DNA of 64,000 nucleotides, from contig JAJRYY010000052.1 in the NCBI GenBank assembly GCA_024275565.1, forward strand, positions 1 to 64,000, given 5' to 3'. Origin of the DNA: Planctomycetota bacterium. GTDB lineage: Bacteria; Planctomycetota; Phycisphaerae; UBA1845. Of the stretch, positions 43,413-52,342 are shown piece by piece. Position 1 is the first letter of the stretch, and every line of letters begins with the position of its first letter. Under the pieces are notes generated by a model. That model searched no databases. It was given only the letters and a program-made list of their open reading frames with translations, and had not been told where the DNA came from. The position numbers and the translations under genes are program-made.

Positions 43413-43460
43413 TCGTCCGACGCTACAGTTGTCCGACGCTATAATTGTCCGACGATGCAT
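43413..43460 (+). repeat. 16-bp tandem repeat x3 at the 5' end of the MAF/DUF115 gene
   Basis: tcgtccgacgctacag / ttgtccgacgctataa / ttgtccgacgatgcat. Confidence 0.9.
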
Positions 43461-45441
43461 ACACTCGACATGGAGGTCGGTTGATTTGCCCGTGCTGGAG
43501 GCACACCCTGGCGATAGTTTCGAAGTTGCGGATCCGCTGCGCCCTGGCAACGATTTATTTGTGAAGAATATTGCAGCTCTTTTTCGTCGCGACCCCAGGC
43601 TTGCCCAGCGCATTGACGAAGTTCCTGAAGAAGCGTGTCTACCGCTTGAACGCACGCGAACAGGTCTTTATACAGCTGCAGTCCCCGCGTCCAATGGTAC
43701 TACGAAATATCTGCACAGCAGGTACGATCCGCAGTCGGAGGCGGAGCGATTTTTGAAGACATTTCCCACCGATGGGAAGTATTGTTTTGTCGTATTCGGT
43801 TTTGGACTTGGGCATCATGTTCGCTTGCTCTTTGAGGGGTTGAAAGGTGACGCAAGCATCATCATCGTCGAGCCGAGGGTCGAGATTCTGGCGACAGCCA
43901 TGGCGTCTGCAGATTTCAGCGACATGCTGCGATCATCGCGTGTCATCCTCCTCGACCGCGTAGACAAGCCGGTTCTTCACGATCGCCTCAAGTCGTATAC
44001 GACGCTCCTGCTGCTCGGCGCACAGTTCGTCGTACACGGACCTTCCAACCAGCTCGACCCCGAATTTCATACGCATGCGATGCGCCTGATGACGGATTTT
44101 ATCGCCTTCCACCGCATGTCGATGCTGACGCTGGTCGGGAACGCGGAAGCAACCTGCCGCAACATCGCCTACAACCTTCCGACTTACCTCTCGACGCCCC
44201 CGATCGACGTCCTTAAGAATCGGTTTCACAACAAACCGGCGATTATCGTTTCCGGTGGTCCGTCGTTGCGGAAGAATATACACTTACTGGAAGAGGCCAA
44301 GGGGTGCGCTGTGATCATCGCGGTGCAGTCCATGTTCAGACCGCTGCTTGAGCGCGGAATCGAACCGGATTTCGTCACAACGCTCGATTTCCACGCGTTG
44401 TCAAAGCAGTTTTTTGGCGACATGCCCGAAACGCCGAACGTCCACCTGATTGCCGAACCGAAAGTTTCGTGGCATGTCCTGGACCAATACAAAGGCCCGG
44501 TATCGGTTCTCCACAGCAGATTTGCAGAGGAACTCATCGGGCCAGCGCTCGCCAGGCGTGACGGTCTGCGTTCGGGGGCGACCGTCTCGCATCTCGCGTT
44601 CTATCTTGCAGAATACCTCGGTTGCAACCCGATCGTATTCACGGGTCAGGATCTCGCGTTCACCAACCACTGCTTTTATATCCCCGGCGTCGAAGCTCAA
44701 CGAACCTGGCAGAGCGAATTGAACCGGTTCAACACGCTCGAAACCAAGGAATGGGAACGCATTGTCCGAAATCGATCCATCCTTCGCAGGATCAAGGACG
44801 TCGATGGCCGCGATATTTACACCGACGATTTACTCTTCACCTACCTCGAACAGTTCGAGCGTGATTTTGCTGAAACGAGCGTTCGCGTCATCAATGCGAC
44901 CGAGGGCGGTGCTCACATCCGGGGTACAGAAACATTGACCCTCCGCGAGGTGCTTGACACATGCGCCCGCGAACCGATCGATGAGCAGGCTTTTGCGTAT
45001 CGTCAGGAGTACCAATGGTCCGACACCTCCAAATGGGAAGCAGCCCGTCAGGAAATCGAGGCGCGTGTGAGCGATATTCAGGAAGTCGGCGATGTCTGCG
45101 AGGAAATGCTTGAAATCCTGCCCCGTTTGCAGAAATTGATCGATCGTCCGGACGAATTCAACCGTCGTCTCATCCGTGTGGACGAGCTTCGCGCGACCAT
45201 GCACCGCGCGCAACGAGCATACCGTATCGTCAACGCAGCCGGTCAGTTGGCAGAGTTGCAGCGGTACAGTGCGGATCGAAAAATCATGGCAGCAGACGCC
45301 AGTGGATCAGAGCGTGCAACACAGCAGCTCGACCGCGACACCACCTATGTATCACAGTTCCAGGCGGGCGTTCAAAAATCTCTCCGCATTCTCCGGGAAA
45401 CCATGGGCCGATTCGACGAACGCATGAGGCCTGAAATATGA
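43429..45441 (+). CDS. MAF/DUF115-family protein (motility-associated glycosyltransferase-like); start uncertain
   Basis: KYCFVVFGFGLGHHVRLLFEGLKGDASIIIVEPRVEIL; NRFHNKPAIIVSGGPSLRKNIHLLEEAKGCAVIIAVQSMFRPLLERGIEPDFVTTLD; NPIVFTGQDLAFTNHCFYIPG. Confidence 0.85.
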   Translation: MSDAIIVRRCIHSTWRSVDLPVLEAHPGDSFEVADPLRPGNDLFVKNIAALFRRDPRLAQRIDEVPEEACLPLERTRTGLYTAAVPASNGTTKYLHSRYDPQSEAERFLKTFPTDGKYCFVVFGFGLGHHVRLLFEGLKGDASIIIVEPRVEILATAMASADFSDMLRSSRVILLDRVDKPVLHDRLKSYTTLLLLGAQFVVHGPSNQLDPEFHTHAMRLMTDFIAFHRMSMLTLVGNAEATCRNIAYNLPTYLSTPPIDVLKNRFHNKPAIIVSGGPSLRKNIHLLEEAKGCAVIIAVQSMFRPLLERGIEPDFVTTLDFHALSKQFFGDMPETPNVHLIAEPKVSWHVLDQYKGPVSVLHSRFAEELIGPALARRDGLRSGATVSHLAFYLAEYLGCNPIVFTGQDLAFTNHCFYIPGVEAQRTWQSELNRFNTLETKEWERIVRNRSILRRIKDVDGRDIYTDDLLFTYLEQFERDFAETSVRVINATEGGAHIRGTETLTLREVLDTCAREPIDEQAFAYRQEYQWSDTSKWEAARQEIEARVSDIQEVGDVCEEMLEILPRLQKLIDRPDEFNRRLIRVDELRATMHRAQRAYRIVNAAGQLAELQRYSADRKIMAADASGSERATQQLDRDTTYVSQFQAGVQKSLRILRETMGRFDERMRPEI

Positions 45442-45465
45442 GGCGTGAAGTATGAGGAGTACGAG
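45424..45465 (+). repeat. 14-bp tandem repeat x3 spanning a stop/start junction
   Basis: atgaggcctgaaat / atgaggcgtgaagt / atgaggagtacgag. Confidence 0.92.
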
Positions 45466-47121
45466 GCTTTGACCTGTGTAGCTGCCATCGAAGTTGATCT
45501 TGATGTGTCACCCATTGGCACCAGGAGTTGCATTGGCCATCTGGTCAACGGCGACTCTGCTCTGACGCACACGATTAGAAACGTCGCCCGTGCGGCGTGT
45601 CTCGACAGCATTACCCTTCTCGCCCCGGAAAATCAAATCTCCGAGTGCGAGAAGCATATCCCCCCCAGCCTGGCCAGGCGTGTTTCCGTGCAAGCCAATA
45701 AAGTGACGGGTACGCCCTATAGATCGCTCATCCAGACCGCCAGGAAATGGGCGCTGGACTCCTGGCGTGGCGGGCTTGGTGGTATGACGTTCATGGACGA
45801 GTACACGCGGACCGGCGAGCTGGCCATGCTTGGTCATGGCGTGAAGGCAGAGTGGGTATTTTGCGTCAATGGCGGAGGTCCGCTCGTCGATCCTGCCATG
45901 ATCGACACCATGTTCGATCACGCCATGCGTACTGAAGAGGAGGCTCGACTGACTTTTGCACAGGCACCACCGGGACTCGTGGGAACCGTCTACAGAACAG
46001 ATCTTCTCATCGAACTGGGGCAGCACCACATGCCGCCCGGCTTCGTCCTTTCATACAAACCAGATCATCCGCAGATGGACCTTGCCAACAAATCCACCTG
46101 TTACACAGCCTCCGTCCCAATCCGTCGGGCTTCGGGCCGACTCATCGCAGATACGCGTCGATCTCTCGAAACCATCAGAGCATACTATGAAACAGGCGGG
46201 CCCGTGGATGCGGATTCCGTCGCACGCTGGCTGATTGATCGTGACCGACGCGTCCCATCATCGCTCCCCCGCGAGACGGAACTGGAGCTGTCGACGGACA
46301 CTCAGCTACCCGACGCACTGCTCCGCCCATGCGGGGATCGCCTCGGACGCACGGGCTGTCTCGACGTTGGCATTGTCGAACGAATCGCCCGTGAACTCGG
46401 TGCGTATGACGATTCGCTCGTAATGCTTGGCGGGTTCGGCGAACCATTGTTGCATCCGAGATTCGGCGAAATCCTTGGTATATTGCGCGACACCGGCATC
46501 TATGGCATTGCGGTACGCACCAACGGTCTCGCTCTGAACGACGCGATCATTGATCTGCTGATCGAGCATAAGGTGGATGTGCTCAATGTTGTCCTGGACG
46601 CGTGGACTCCGGAAACATACGCGCGGGTGCAGGGCGTCGATCGTCTTGATGAGGTGAAGCAAAACCTCACGCGTCTGGAGAAGCGAAAGCAGGAACGGAA
46701 GAGTGTCTCACCGCTGGTGGTCCCGGAGTTGACGAAAAGCCTGCACACAATGGATGACATGGACGCGTTTTTCGATGGCTGGATTCGCACCTCCGGCTGG
46801 GCGAATATGGGCACGGGCGGACACTACGCAGGCCAGGTTGAGGATCTACGTCCGATGCCGATGTCACCACCGAGTCGAACACCATGTCGGCAGATGATGC
46901 GGCGATCGCTGGTATTGGCGGACGGACGGGTCACGGTCTGCGACCAGGATTTCAAGGGGCGTTACACTGTGGGCGATGTGTCGGGGGGCGATATGTCGGG
47001 ATCATCTCTAAGCGACATCTGGCGTGGCAGCGCAATGGAAAAAGCACGCAGCCAGCAAATTGAAGGCCACTGCGATTCAATCCCCCTGTGCACCAGCTGC
47101 GACGAGTGGCATCGTCTTTAA
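45445..47121 (+). CDS. Nucleotidyltransferase-like (SpsF-like) domain fused to a radical-SAM/SPASM-like domain lacking a canonical CX3CX2C
   Basis: N-terminal VAAIEVDLDVSPIGTRSCIGHLVNGDSALTHTIRNVARA...NGGGPLVDPAMIDTMFDHAM; then LGGFGEPLLHPRFGEILGILRDTGIYGIAVRTNGLALNDAI (GEPLLHP, TNG); C-terminal VCDQDFKG...CDSIPLCTSCDEW. Confidence 0.7.
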   Translation: MKYEEYEALTCVAAIEVDLDVSPIGTRSCIGHLVNGDSALTHTIRNVARAACLDSITLLAPENQISECEKHIPPSLARRVSVQANKVTGTPYRSLIQTARKWALDSWRGGLGGMTFMDEYTRTGELAMLGHGVKAEWVFCVNGGGPLVDPAMIDTMFDHAMRTEEEARLTFAQAPPGLVGTVYRTDLLIELGQHHMPPGFVLSYKPDHPQMDLANKSTCYTASVPIRRASGRLIADTRRSLETIRAYYETGGPVDADSVARWLIDRDRRVPSSLPRETELELSTDTQLPDALLRPCGDRLGRTGCLDVGIVERIARELGAYDDSLVMLGGFGEPLLHPRFGEILGILRDTGIYGIAVRTNGLALNDAIIDLLIEHKVDVLNVVLDAWTPETYARVQGVDRLDEVKQNLTRLEKRKQERKSVSPLVVPELTKSLHTMDDMDAFFDGWIRTSGWANMGTGGHYAGQVEDLRPMPMSPPSRTPCRQMMRRSLVLADGRVTVCDQDFKGRYTVGDVSGGDMSGSSLSDIWRGSAMEKARSQQIEGHCDSIPLCTSCDEWHRL

Positions 47122-47308: not shown

Positions 47309-47767
47309 TCACTCGCACGCGGGCAGCAGGTCCGCCAGCGTGCAAATTTTTTCGTAGTACTCTTCCTGATCCATGCCGCACAACGCAGCCCCAAACACTT
47401 CTGCATCCTCATGGGATACAACGTCACCGTAGTTGATCCGGACGAGCTGGTACGCGATTAACAGGGGCAAAGCCTCAGGCTGATCGGCGAAGTCCGGGTG
47501 TACATAGAGTGTGAAACCATCGCTGGGATGGCTTCCCTGGGGTTCGGGATAGGCGAATTCGCCAGTCTGGAGCGGTTGGTCATCGAAGACCAGCGCGACA
47601 GGATATCGTACCACTTCACGATCGTCGAGGAGTTCCAGAATCGCATCGCCATCAATCTGCGGACCATACCTCTCACGGGCTGTCAAAGCCACTGAGAGGA
47701 TATGGTCGCGCAGCGCGATGGTACCATCACGAACAGTCGGTTTGTGCTTCCGGAATCGTTTCGCCAA
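47309..47767 (-). CDS. Conserved-looking protein of unknown function
   Basis: 152-aa ORF immediately downstream of the HAO-like gene on the same strand; no recognised motif. Confidence 0.55.
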   Translation of the reverse strand: MAKRFRKHKPTVRDGTIALRDHILSVALTARERYGPQIDGDAILELLDDREVVRYPVALVFDDQPLQTGEFAYPEPQGSHPSDGFTLYVHPDFADQPEALPLLIAYQLVRINYGDVVSHEDAEVFGAALCGMDQEEYYEKICTLADLLPACE

Positions 47768-47794: not shown

Positions 47795-49264
47795 CTACTT
47801 CTCATACCGTGCGCGGAATTCCTTCGCTGCTTTCTCACGACGCGCACGTTCCTTGTCGTCCATCCGATTGGTGTACCAAAGGTGATCCGTTGAATCGAGT
47901 ACTTGCCTGAGCTTTTTCTGGAGCGCTACAGCGGCTTTTTTCCGTGCAGGATCCTCGGAGTGCAGATTGTCTTCCGCAAGCTCCTCCAGTTCAGGGATGT
48001 AGTCGGTATAGAAGTGCTTAGCGATTTCGTACGTTCCATGCCAATGCGTGTAATCCGGACCCATCATCGACGCACCATGCCGAGCGCGTCGCCCCTCATG
48101 ATGCCAGATTTCAAACCATACGAAATCGAGCTTATTGGAGAACTTGGCAGGCTTGAGGAGCGGCTTGGCGGCTGCGTAGAGTGCAGCTCCCGGTTTGGCG
48201 AATTTGTCATTGTACAGCTCGATAAGCTCATCATACTGCACATAGAAATTATCGACCCAGGTTTTGTTGTGGCAATTGTGGCAGACATTCTTCATATTAT
48301 CTCGCCGCACCTGCCATGGAATATCCTTACCAGGCAAGCCCATCTTTGCATCGGCAACTTCGGGGCGAATGGAAACGACAGGCCGGTTGTTCCAGCTGAT
48401 ACGCAGGCCTACATCGTGCGTCACCGCTTGATCTTTCGTGGCAGACATATGACAGGTCGCGCAGGTTGGTGCAGCCCAGTAGTCCTCGCCAACCACCCAT
48501 TTGTTGTTGTGAAGGTTCATCTTATCGATGTTGGCAAAAAACGCGATCCCATGCTTGGATTCCTCATAGATCTCTTTCTGCGGATGATCCGGTCCCATAT
48601 GACATTTTCCGCACGTGTCCGGATGCCGAGCCTGACCCGCTGAAAACGCATGCCGTGTATGACAGGCTGCACAGGAACCTTCGGACCCGTCAGGGTTCAG
48701 TCGTCCGATCCCCGTGTTTGGCCAGGTCGCCGGGTCGAGCTTCCCATCGGCCAGTACCTTCACCTGAGATCCGTGACACTGCCAACACCCCGACACCGCC
48801 GAAGCTGCATTACCATCAGGAAACCCGGGGCTGACGAAATTGCGGTTGCCCTCGACAACCTCCGCCAGAATGTTGTCCAGCGATCCGAGAATACGACCTG
48901 CCTTGGCGTGATGGGAATTAATGAACTCATGCACTTCCCGACTATGACACTTCCCGCAGTCTTTCGGGCTTACGATCGTGGCGATGGTAAAGTCGTAATG
49001 CTGAAATGCATCGACGTCCGTCTTATCAGCCCCGTGGCACTCAAAACAACCGATATTGGCGCGATAGTGCTTGCTCTCCCCCCATTGCTGGTAGAGTGCG
49101 CGCCCTTCGCTTTTGTGGCATTCGATGCACTCTTCGCTGGCTTCGCTTAGCTCTGGAAGCCCAATCGCCTGAGCCATCACGGTCAGGGGAGTGAAGATAA
49201 TCACGCCTGCCACGATCACTTTTTTCTGCAATATCAGGTGTAAGAAATGCTGAAATGTCCTCAT
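47795..49264 (-). CDS. Octaheme cytochrome c, hydroxylamine oxidoreductase (HAO)-like
   Basis: Eight CXXCH: CIECH, CFECH, CGKCH, CWQCH, CAACH, CGKCH, CATCH, CHNCH; signal-like N-terminus; GCWQCHGS and MMGPDYTHWHGTYEIAKHFY read as HAO-family segments. Confidence 0.82.
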   Translation of the reverse strand: MRTFQHFLHLILQKKVIVAGVIIFTPLTVMAQAIGLPELSEASEECIECHKSEGRALYQQWGESKHYRANIGCFECHGADKTDVDAFQHYDFTIATIVSPKDCGKCHSREVHEFINSHHAKAGRILGSLDNILAEVVEGNRNFVSPGFPDGNAASAVSGCWQCHGSQVKVLADGKLDPATWPNTGIGRLNPDGSEGSCAACHTRHAFSAGQARHPDTCGKCHMGPDHPQKEIYEESKHGIAFFANIDKMNLHNNKWVVGEDYWAAPTCATCHMSATKDQAVTHDVGLRISWNNRPVVSIRPEVADAKMGLPGKDIPWQVRRDNMKNVCHNCHNKTWVDNFYVQYDELIELYNDKFAKPGAALYAAAKPLLKPAKFSNKLDFVWFEIWHHEGRRARHGASMMGPDYTHWHGTYEIAKHFYTDYIPELEELAEDNLHSEDPARKKAAVALQKKLRQVLDSTDHLWYTNRMDDKERARREKAAKEFRARYEK

Positions 49265-49293
49265 TGATGGATCTCCTCATCAGTCAGTCAGAA

Positions 49294-50517
49294 TCATCGC
49301 GGAACGCTGTGAGACTCAGAAGCGTCGTCTGCGGTTACCCGTCCAGTCAGTACGGGGACAGAAATGCGTACGAAAATAGTGTACAAAAGCAGGCCAAACG
49401 CCCAGATGCCAAGGCATACAAGCGTTTCATTCAACGTGGGTTGATATTCGACCAGTTCACCAAGCGGGGAGGGAATAAAAGCAGGGACAACCAGCCCCAT
49501 CCCTTTTTCTATCCATATACCCACAATCATGCAGACACAGGCGATATTCATGAAACGCAGGCTACGTCTGAATGGAAGATAGAGAATGAACAGTGCGATG
49601 GAATTGAGCACAGTCGCCGTCCATATCCAGGGGACAAGACCATAATGTCCGTGCAATCCAAAAAATAGATACTTGATGGACACGATGTGTGCAGAGTCGG
49701 CGTAGAACTCGGTGAACAGCTCGCAGATTAGCAGGAACATATTGACCGTCAGAGCTATCGTGACAATGTTGCGTAATAGTTTCAACGCGTCATCGCCCAC
49801 ATGGTACCCCGCATAACGCCGGATGACCTGCAATGTGAGGATGATGAAAGCCGGACCCGCCGCAAAAGCAGATGCAAGGAAGCGCGGTGCTATAATCGCA
49901 GCATTCCAGAAAGGGCGTCCGCCCAGACCAACGAACAGAAAAGCTGTCACAGTATGAATACTGATTGCCCAGGCGATGGCGATAAAAACAAACGGAATAT
50001 AAAAGCGGCGACTGGGGTGAACCCCGCGATACGCGCAATAAATCAGGTATCCGCAGATATGCAGGTTCAGCAACAGATAACCACCCAGGGCGATCACATC
50101 CCAGGTCAGCATCGACACCGGAAAATTGAATCGCCAGAGCATGTGCATAAACCTGTCGGGCCTTCCAAGGTCAACCTGAACGAACAGCAGACACATGATG
50201 ATGGCCACGACTGCGAACAGCTCCCCGAAAATCACCAGATCATGCAATTCCCGCCGTCCATAAATGTACACCGGGATCACAACCATCACCGCCGCAGCAG
50301 CCATACCCACAAGATAGGTGAAATTAGCGATATACAGACCCCAGGAAACCTGATCCGTCATACCTGTGGTCACCAGCCCATAGACCAGCTGCTTCGCGTA
50401 AGCATTCAACCCCAGCAACACAATCACGGAGAGAAGCAGCATCCAGGCGTAGTACCGCCAATCGCCCACGAAGCTCAGCCGGAAACATCGCCACAGAAAA
50501 CGCAGATACATTTTCAT
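49294..50517 (-). CDS. NrfD/PsrC-like quinone-interacting membrane protein
   Basis: Multiple TM helices: FVQVDLGRPDRFMHMLWRFNFPVSMLTWDVIALGGYLLLNLHICGYLIY; IAPRFLASAFAAGPAFIILTLQVIRRYAG. Confidence 0.85.
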   Translation of the reverse strand: MKMYLRFLWRCFRLSFVGDWRYYAWMLLLSVIVLLGLNAYAKQLVYGLVTTGMTDQVSWGLYIANFTYLVGMAAAAVMVVIPVYIYGRRELHDLVIFGELFAVVAIIMCLLFVQVDLGRPDRFMHMLWRFNFPVSMLTWDVIALGGYLLLNLHICGYLIYCAYRGVHPSRRFYIPFVFIAIAWAISIHTVTAFLFVGLGGRPFWNAAIIAPRFLASAFAAGPAFIILTLQVIRRYAGYHVGDDALKLLRNIVTIALTVNMFLLICELFTEFYADSAHIVSIKYLFFGLHGHYGLVPWIWTATVLNSIALFILYLPFRRSLRFMNIACVCMIVGIWIEKGMGLVVPAFIPSPLGELVEYQPTLNETLVCLGIWAFGLLLYTIFVRISVPVLTGRVTADDASESHSVPR

Positions 50518-51521
50518 GCGTGGCCACCTCCAGAGATCACGGGCAACGACACAAGTGATTCACTGCGGGGATAATCCTCATCAAAGTAGTAAAAGAACCG
50601 AGGCAGAGTGCCGACCTCCTCCTTGAGTACAAACACATGCTTATTGTTGAGAATCTGTGAAACTTCACTCTCAGGGTCAAGAATGTTACCAAACTTGCGC
50701 GCACCGACCGGGCATACCTCCAGACAGGCGGGCATGCGACCCTCACGGGTCCGTTGTATGCAGAAATGGCACTTCTCCATGACGCCCTGCTTGCGAGGGC
50801 GATTGGAGAGATACGCCATATTCGGGTTGATGTTTTCGCGAGGAACCTGAGGCTCGGCAAAGTTGAACCGCCGAGCCCAATACGGACACGCAGCTTCACA
50901 ATAACGACAACCAATACACCAGTCGTAATCGATGACGACGAGACCATCCTGCTCCTGCCAGGTGGCTTCGACCGGGCAGACCTTCACGCACGGAGGATTG
51001 GCGCACTGATGACACTGGATAGGCATGTAGTAGTGGTCAGGATCGGGGACTTTGGGACGATCGTAGTCGTGACGACCCTGCTCAAGATCGATACTCCCCT
51101 TGGGCATCTCAAGAACACGAATATACTGAATCTCAGGCGACCGGCTCGTGTTGTTTTCCGCAACACAGGCATGGACACATCGACGACACCCGATACACCG
51201 ACCAAGATGCAGCGCATACGCAAACTCAACACCATCATTCGCTTTGATGTCTCGAAGTTCCGGTCGAATAGCATAACGCTTCTCAACCTCTCCACGAATC
51301 CGCTCGAGAACCGCCTCCATATCACTCGGTGACATCTCCTTGTAGTGCTTCTGGAGAAACTTCTCGACCGTGAAATCCTCTGTGTCCATATGGCGGAGGG
51401 GACTCATCGCTGCCGCCAGGGCAGCCGCACCACCCGCTGCACCCAGACTACCACGCAGAAAACTGCGACGTGTCAGATTGTCCCGCCCGCCGGTGGCCAC
51501 CAGTTGATCTTCGGATGTCAT
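50514..51521 (-). CDS. Tat-exported 4x[4Fe-4S] ferredoxin-type subunit (NrfC/HybA-like)
   Basis: LTRRSFLRGSLGAAGGAAALAAA twin-arginine signal; CIGCRRCVHACVAEN, CHQCANPPCVKVCPVEA, CIGCRYCEAACPYW, CHFCIQRTREGRMPACLEVCPVGA. Confidence 0.9.
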   Translation of the reverse strand: MTSEDQLVATGGRDNLTRRSFLRGSLGAAGGAAALAAAMSPLRHMDTEDFTVEKFLQKHYKEMSPSDMEAVLERIRGEVEKRYAIRPELRDIKANDGVEFAYALHLGRCIGCRRCVHACVAENNTSRSPEIQYIRVLEMPKGSIDLEQGRHDYDRPKVPDPDHYYMPIQCHQCANPPCVKVCPVEATWQEQDGLVVIDYDWCIGCRYCEAACPYWARRFNFAEPQVPRENINPNMAYLSNRPRKQGVMEKCHFCIQRTREGRMPACLEVCPVGARKFGNILDPESEVSQILNNKHVFVLKEEVGTLPRFFYYFDEDYPRSESLVSLPVISGGGHA

Positions 51522-52342
51522 GCCCCATGCTCCTTCTCAGTACCTTGTCGCACGCCTGTCTCACTCTGTGTGTGTCCGTCGTACTGTTCGTCAGCATCTG
51601 TGCGCGAACGCTTATCAACGGCGTGCTTCCGGATCGCACGGCGAAGCGGATCCCGGATCGGGGCATCGTCGTGTTCCGCTTCATCAATCCGGTGATCTGA
51701 ATCAGATTTTCCCATGCGCAAGGTGTTCGGTCCGGGGAGTGGAGCGACCGAATCCATGGCAGGGACACGCGGATTGTGCGGGTCATGGCATTCCGTACAA
51801 CGGAGGCGACGCACCTCACCGCGGGACGAGTCCCAATACCCGTTGGTCCGACCATGCGCACCCTGTTTCCAGTCGAGGTAGACGGAACCGTGGCATGCAG
51901 CACAGAGTGTTTCCACTTCATTGTATCGGACGTTCTTACCGTCACGAAGCACAAGCAGATCGCGATCTTTGGAGTCGTGGCAGCTTCGACACTCCTTGTT
52001 GATCCCATGATGGAGCACGATATCTCGATGCTGCAGGAGTGGTTGGGATGGATCCTCCCGAAGGGGGAACATCTTGTGGCAATCCATGCAGGTGCGATCA
52101 TACCCATCTATGTTGATCGTTGGGGGATCGGTCAGAATGACACGCCGCGGAGCAGTGGATAGCAGTGCAGGATCCACGCTGACCGGTTGGCTGGTAGGAA
52201 TGTCAAGCATGTCCGGGCCAAACGTGAACCAGCAGGCCATTCCGAAAAACACAACCATGATGACGACATAAGCGCCCCATCCAGACTTGGTCGAGCCCTG
52301 ACCACGCGTAGAGGCATCCGGGTTGCTGTGAGCGGGGGACAT
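51518..52342 (-). CDS. Membrane-anchored tetraheme cytochrome c
   Basis: TM WGAYVVIMVVFFGMACWFTFG; CMDCH, CRSCH, CAACH, CTECH. Start trimmed from 52495 to ATG 52342. Confidence 0.82.
   Translation of the reverse strand: MSPAHSNPDASTRGQGSTKSGWGAYVVIMVVFFGMACWFTFGPDMLDIPTSQPVSVDPALLSTAPRRVILTDPPTINIDGYDRTCMDCHKMFPLREDPSQPLLQHRDIVLHHGINKECRSCHDSKDRDLLVLRDGKNVRYNEVETLCAACHGSVYLDWKQGAHGRTNGYWDSSRGEVRRLRCTECHDPHNPRVPAMDSVAPLPGPNTLRMGKSDSDHRIDEAEHDDAPIRDPLRRAIRKHAVDKRSRTDADEQYDGHTQSETGVRQGTEKEHGA

Follow-up and report, generated by a model that had tools for sequence, protein, structure and literature searches.

Thermosulfurimonas dismutans and Dissulfuribacter thermophilus have a four-gene locus near nap for which a nitrite reductase function was suggested earlier (PMC5276818; PMC4911364); by its description it encodes a cytochrome homologous to HaoA, an NrfD protein, a TtrB-like 4Fe-4S protein and a transmembrane (TM) cytochrome c. 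On the enzyme side, the Guaymas Beggiatoaceae have an orange cytochrome (BOGUAY_0691), with nap genes upstream in the genome, that reportedly acts as a nitrite reductase and also oxidises NH2OH and N2H4, with low specific activities (0.05–0.31 µmol/min/mg for the native and 0.003–0.014 for the recombinant protein), and a SUP05 bacterium that encodes a homologue of it showed no growth on nitrite alone (PMC6449678). For these two reasons, the data on the orange cytochrome back a competence rather than a proven role. The octaheme family is known already, but poorly understood.

We analysed a window of 64,000 nucleotides from a Planctomycetota bacterium (Phycisphaerae; contig JAJRYY010000052.1, assembly GCA_024275565.1). 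The first-pass annotation had described on the minus strand an operon of four genes, for a TM-anchored tetraheme cytochrome, a Tat-exported 4x[4Fe-4S] protein, an NrfD-like protein and a cytochrome with eight CXXCH motifs. Open reading frames and motifs agree with this description in the position of the genes, heme counts and TM and Tat features (Table 1), as well as in the overlaps of 4 nt between the tetraheme and Fe-S genes and between the Fe-S and NrfD genes, and in the gap of 29 nt between the latter and the octaheme gene; the start of the tetraheme gene is ambiguous (ATG 52342 or GTG 52495). The set has, however, five genes rather than four, as a short gene downstream of the octaheme had been overlooked. 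This five-gene set is real and conserved. The locus of Thermosulfurimonas and Dissulfuribacter has a gene numbering that fits the same order, and nap is close by; it differs in belonging to thermophilic sulfur bacteria and in that the fifth gene is unmentioned in its description. The present set thus extends a known kind, and what is new here is its breadth, the link to DsrOP, the swapping of partners and the fifth gene. Scans for promoters and terminators found no signal clearly above the level of shuffled sequences. At 43429–47121 of the window, two long plus-strand open reading frames (670 and 558 aa) converge on the operon, the 558-aa one having a radical-SAM-like look.

Table 1. Genes of the five-gene set and active-site features of the octaheme cytochrome (positions in the window)
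Feature	Position	Strand	Basis and remarks
Tetraheme cytochrome c	51518..52342	-	4 CXXCH at residues 85/118/147/182; N-terminal TM anchor
Tat-exported 4x[4Fe-4S] protein, DsrO/TtrB/NrfC-like	50514..51521	-	TRRSFLRG motif and 16 cluster cysteines, both read directly
NrfD-family integral membrane protein, best fit DsrP	49294..50517	-	~10 predicted TM; PF03916 130 bits
Octaheme cytochrome c, HAO superfamily, IhOCC/orange-cytochrome branch, putative catalytic subunit	47795..49264	-	exactly 8 CXXCH; N-terminal signal sequence
Fifth gene, 152 aa, no known family	47309..47767	-	starts 27 nt downstream of octaheme
Heme motif C160-W-Q-C-H164, corresponding to catalytic heme 4 of HAO (CTMCH 229-233, NeHAO)	48773..48787	-	alignments; conserved in 79/79 octahemes
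Distal-pocket D226-H227, corresponding to NeHAO Asp267-His268	48584..48589	-	alignment; D 78/79, H 79/79
M400...H407-W408, H407 aligning with crosslinking Tyr467 of HAO	48041..48067	-	M400 and W408 invariant, 79/79

The three upstream genes had been annotated as an NrfC/NrfD-type module. The quinone-linked type still stands but, by NCBIfam scores, the module is nearer to DsrOP than to NrfCD. In fact, the NrfD-like protein passes the DsrP model (408.7, cut-off 350), and so do its homologues, and the Fe-S protein is nearest to DsrO (176.5 bits, below the cut-off of 200); the NrfC model gave 110.6 against a cut-off of 377.6 and NrfB 20.3 against 166.6. Similar DsrP/DsrO model behaviour was found in other cassettes of the module, and the nearest solved structures to the NrfD-like protein are those of Alternative Complex III subunit C. 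With scores so far under the cut-offs, the NrfCD label was rejected, together with membership of NrfABCD, which also fails for want of an NrfA match in the draft genome. A full DsrMKJOP complex was rejected as well: DsrM, DsrK and a triheme DsrJ were not found in or beside the operon, the partner here is a tetraheme instead of the triheme DsrJ, and DsrMKJOP has no octaheme enzyme attached. Judging from the model scores, the module probably works like a DsrOP quinone module with the tetraheme in the place of DsrJ, in which the NrfD-like protein is the putative menaquinol-binding subunit and the tetraheme probably relays electrons between the Fe-S protein and the octaheme. The annotation's remark that such proteins normally pair with pentahemes or molybdoenzymes needs a caveat, as MccA, an octaheme sulfite reductase, has an NrfC/NrfD-like pair as partners.

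Conservation of the neighbourhood, which had been suggested as a check, was then evident at two scales. Among 100 relatives, about 40 have the octaheme and 24 the NrfD protein of the module, and all 24 of the latter have the octaheme; by contrast, about 16 of the 40 octaheme-bearing relatives are without the module across the whole draft genome. In a sample of 80 named loci the gene set is kept together in 49, belonging to many phyla, mostly with the module upstream and in the same order, but downstream in 6 and divergent in 1; the 31 loci without the module comprise 17 with ample and 14 with incomplete flanks. Copies of the tetraheme, 30–60% identical, occupy the same place in relatives. Since the gene order is kept in 19 or more relatives and in most of the 49 module-bearing loci, across many phyla, it is not due to chance. 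The octaheme is, however, often alone, and an obligate partnership was rejected; the module label changes about 7 times on the tree, indicating that gain or loss of the module was repeated.

A second octaheme group (46–47% identity) adjoins a cytochrome b gene, sometimes with NapA too; in loci L066 and L069 it lies between the cytochrome b gene and napA, and there an enzyme of this kind has cytochrome b as an alternative partner on the quinone side. The anammox bacterium Ca. Scalindua SCAELEC01 has ten PF13447 matches (L112 and L153-L162), and carries both an octaheme orthologous to that of the window, accompanied by the complete tetraheme-Fe-S-NrfD module, and an octaheme of the cytochrome-b-linked group. 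In locus L070 (G006:C215:11000-30000), two octaheme genes of equal scores are inverted and about 10 kb apart, which reflects either a genuine inverted duplication or an error of assembly.

The fifth gene has 29 homologues in the sampled loci. Among the 80 named loci it occurs exclusively in module-bearing ones (25/49, in 22 directly downstream of the octaheme, and 0/31 in those without the module). Its product had no match in Pfam, NCBIfam or PADLOC and, although its AF2 model is confident (pLDDT 95), a fold search against the PDB returned no match below E 0.3, so that no function was assigned. As the protein has no evident signal peptide and occurs along with the module, it could act in the cytoplasm on the maturation of the Fe-S protein that Tat exports; help of this sort, or in assembling the module, is a fair guess and nothing firmer.

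As for the nitrogen genes of the host, the genome encodes one canonical NarG (1497.6 bits, cut-off 1084), and none of the three nitrite reductases searched for, NrfA, NirK and NirS, had a match in the draft. The absence of an nrfA-like gene, already reported for the window, thus extends to the whole draft genome; as this is 95% complete, such absences are provisional. A strong NrfA was found in 7 of the 51 octaheme-bearing genomes searched, and canonical NarG is rare among module-bearing relatives. In 19 of the 80 loci the flanking sequence covered includes NapA, confirmed by model, and this holds for module-bearing and module-less loci alike.

The octaheme itself had been assigned to the HAO family, and sequence, profile and fold searches, as well as the tree, place it in the HAO superfamily, of which it has the eight CXXCH, the heme-4 motif and the equivalents of Asp267/His268. 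In a sequence search of solved structures, IhOCC of Ignicoccus hospitalis was the top match (4qo5, E 2.7e-49); the profile search gave again IhOCC (E 2.1e-75), followed by Nitrosomonas HAO (1fgj, E 6.5e-33), then the reductive HAO-like 6h5l and others, with NrfA and ONR as marginal matches (ONR E about 0.01). The AF2 model of the octaheme is of moderate quality (pLDDT 75) and contains no hemes, and only the ranking of its matches was used: IhOCC came first (E 8e-13) and 6h5l second, with low TM-scores, probably because of the missing hemes. The octaheme shares with HAO/HDH (1fgj, 4n4j, 6hif) and with 6h5l the superfamily, the catalytic Asp/His and the eight hemes; HAO/HDH differ in having the crosslinking Tyr and in forming a separate clade, as the octaheme falls within a large clade apart from the Scalindua HAO/HDH paralogues (support 100, by a quick method and with long outgroup branches). 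IhOCC also lacks the crosslinking Tyr in the alignment, but is archaeal and carries a Val where the octaheme has the distal His (PDV instead of PDH); it is not known to have an NrfD module.

Within the superfamily, the profile E-values, the tree and the identity to the orange cytochrome set the octaheme nearer to the IhOCC/orange-cytochrome branch than to HAO/HDH. All four published primer sites of BOGUAY_0691 are present with zero mismatches in locus L173, which for this reason is the orange cytochrome gene of the Guaymas Beggiatoaceae; the window octaheme is 61% identical to it over 475 aa. The two proteins have in common the 8 CXXCH, the same heme 4 and Asp/His, and the absence of the crosslinking Tyr, but the orange cytochrome has Gln instead of His at the key site and no adjoining tetraheme, Fe-S and NrfD genes were found. 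A protein identical to it is encoded by contig DQYP01000243.1 (L138), labelled Thermotogaceae, which is thus probably mis-binned or mislabelled. Octaheme Hao-type genes of Phycisphaerae have been noted earlier under the name Onr (PMC11266412). The signature of ONR is, however, 3x CXXCH, 1x CXXCK, 4x CXXCH (PMC10716430), and the ONR label was rejected for our octaheme, CXXCK being found in 0 of 79 octahemes.

The crosslinking tyrosine, put forward in the first-pass annotation as the residue to separate oxidases from reductases, is absent. Tyr467 of NeHAO was found by counting in a printed alignment, and aligns with a Tyr of the Scalindua HAO-type paralogues; in the same column the 79 octahemes have H in 61 cases, Q in 13, W in 4, F in 1 and Y in none. 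Membership of the oxidative HAO/HDH was rejected for this reason, and the missing Tyr favours the reductive side of the superfamily. In a 2025 study of anammox HAO, His at the crosslink site was the reductive state by ancestral reconstruction (PMC12758564). Moreover, according to the traits of epsilonproteobacterial Hao as quoted in PMC8940962, a conserved Met and Trp are present, with the Trp placed at the Tyr position; M400 and W408 match this description, with the Met eight residues before the Trp, and either alignment register excludes Tyr. Taken at the level of residues, these traits, with His or Trp at the key site, are those described for reductive HAO and epsilonproteobacterial Hao (PMC8940962, PMC12758564), and place the octaheme, as read from its sequence, on the reductive, non-crosslinked side.

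We suggest, with a probability of about 0.62, that the operon encodes a menaquinol-linked periplasmic nitrite (and hydroxylamine) reductase. Reaction direction, electron path, product, physiological role and the function of the fifth gene are parts of a scheme that we infer, in which the DsrP/NrfD-type membrane protein would take electrons from menaquinol, and the periplasmic 4x[4Fe-4S] protein and then the TM-anchored tetraheme would hand them on to the octaheme. Nitrite, which the cell's own nitrate reductase would supply (NarG here, NapA in many relatives), would bind next to Asp226/His227 at heme 4, a His-ligated heme, and be reduced, most likely to ammonium and possibly to NO. This reading is favoured by the placement with IhOCC first and HAO next, by the identity to the orange cytochrome with its reported nitrite reduction, by the conserved D/H, the replacement of the crosslinking Tyr by His and the M400/W408 traits, and by the linkage to NapA, the NarG of the host, the lack of NrfA, NirK and NirS matches and the octaheme found in every NrfD-bearing relative. 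Against it are the low activity of the orange cytochrome, which oxidises NH2OH and N2H4 too, the many genomes with the octaheme and without the module, and the rarity of canonical NarG in module-bearing relatives.

Some of these same points could indicate that the system serves for detoxification of nitrite, hydroxylamine or NO, and not for respiration, as the orange protein is weakly active, its SUP05 relative does not grow on nitrite alone (PMC6449678), and the octaheme often occurs without a quinone module. We consider this unlikely: the conservation of a dedicated quinol module in different phyla points to a respiratory supply of electrons, and the clustering with Nap suggests respiratory nitrate reduction. 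It is quite improbable, too, that the octaheme works as an oxidase of periplasmic NH2OH or hydrazine, feeding electrons into the quinone pool via the tetraheme, Fe-S and NrfD proteins. The protein belongs to the HAO superfamily and keeps Asp/His, the orange cytochrome oxidises NH2OH and N2H4 in vitro (PMC6449678), and the module could in principle operate in both directions; but the Tyr found in the oxidative Scalindua paralogues is missing from all 79 octahemes, and nitrate reductase genes are frequently linked.

That the enzyme, like MccA or Otr, reduces sulfur oxyanions such as sulfite and tetrathionate, or some other acceptor, is very improbable, since the DsrOP-like module and the NrfC/NrfD-like pair of MccA are outweighed by the lack of CX15CH in the window octaheme and of CXXCK in the group, by profile matches that include HAO but neither MccA nor Otr, and by the linkage to nitrogen genes. 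Assignment to MccA/SirA or Otr was rejected on the CX15CH motif and the profile matches. The annotation had proposed a quinol-linked reductase for nitrogen compounds (nitrite, hydroxylamine, hydrazine) or sulfur oxyanions, or the reverse oxidase; of this, the quinone link stands and nitrogen-oxide chemistry appears likely, and the sulfur-oxyanion role gained no positive support.

A menaquinol-linked nitrite reductase of this kind might be part of something larger, namely a widespread and overlooked respiratory nitrite ammonification that replaces NrfA, made of an HAO-family octaheme, an ion-translocating DsrP/NrfD-type menaquinol module and a dedicated assembly protein, present in Planctomycetota, Verrucomicrobiota and other phyla, and missed by surveys based on nrfA and onr alone. 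We advance this tentatively, and regard it as rather doubtful in its full extent. Nitrate ammonification is surveyed by counting nrfA and onr, with the HAO/IhOCC-type octahemes omitted; in one case these served only as negative controls (PMC10716430). If the reading is true, this capacity has gone uncounted, and many bacteria that have a nitrate reductase, but not NrfA, NirK or NirS, would gain a route for the use of nitrite. Moreover, the swapping of partners around one catalytic cytochrome, with a DsrOP-like module, a cytochrome b or none nearby, would allow the wiring of such enzymes to the quinone pool to be tested directly by comparison.
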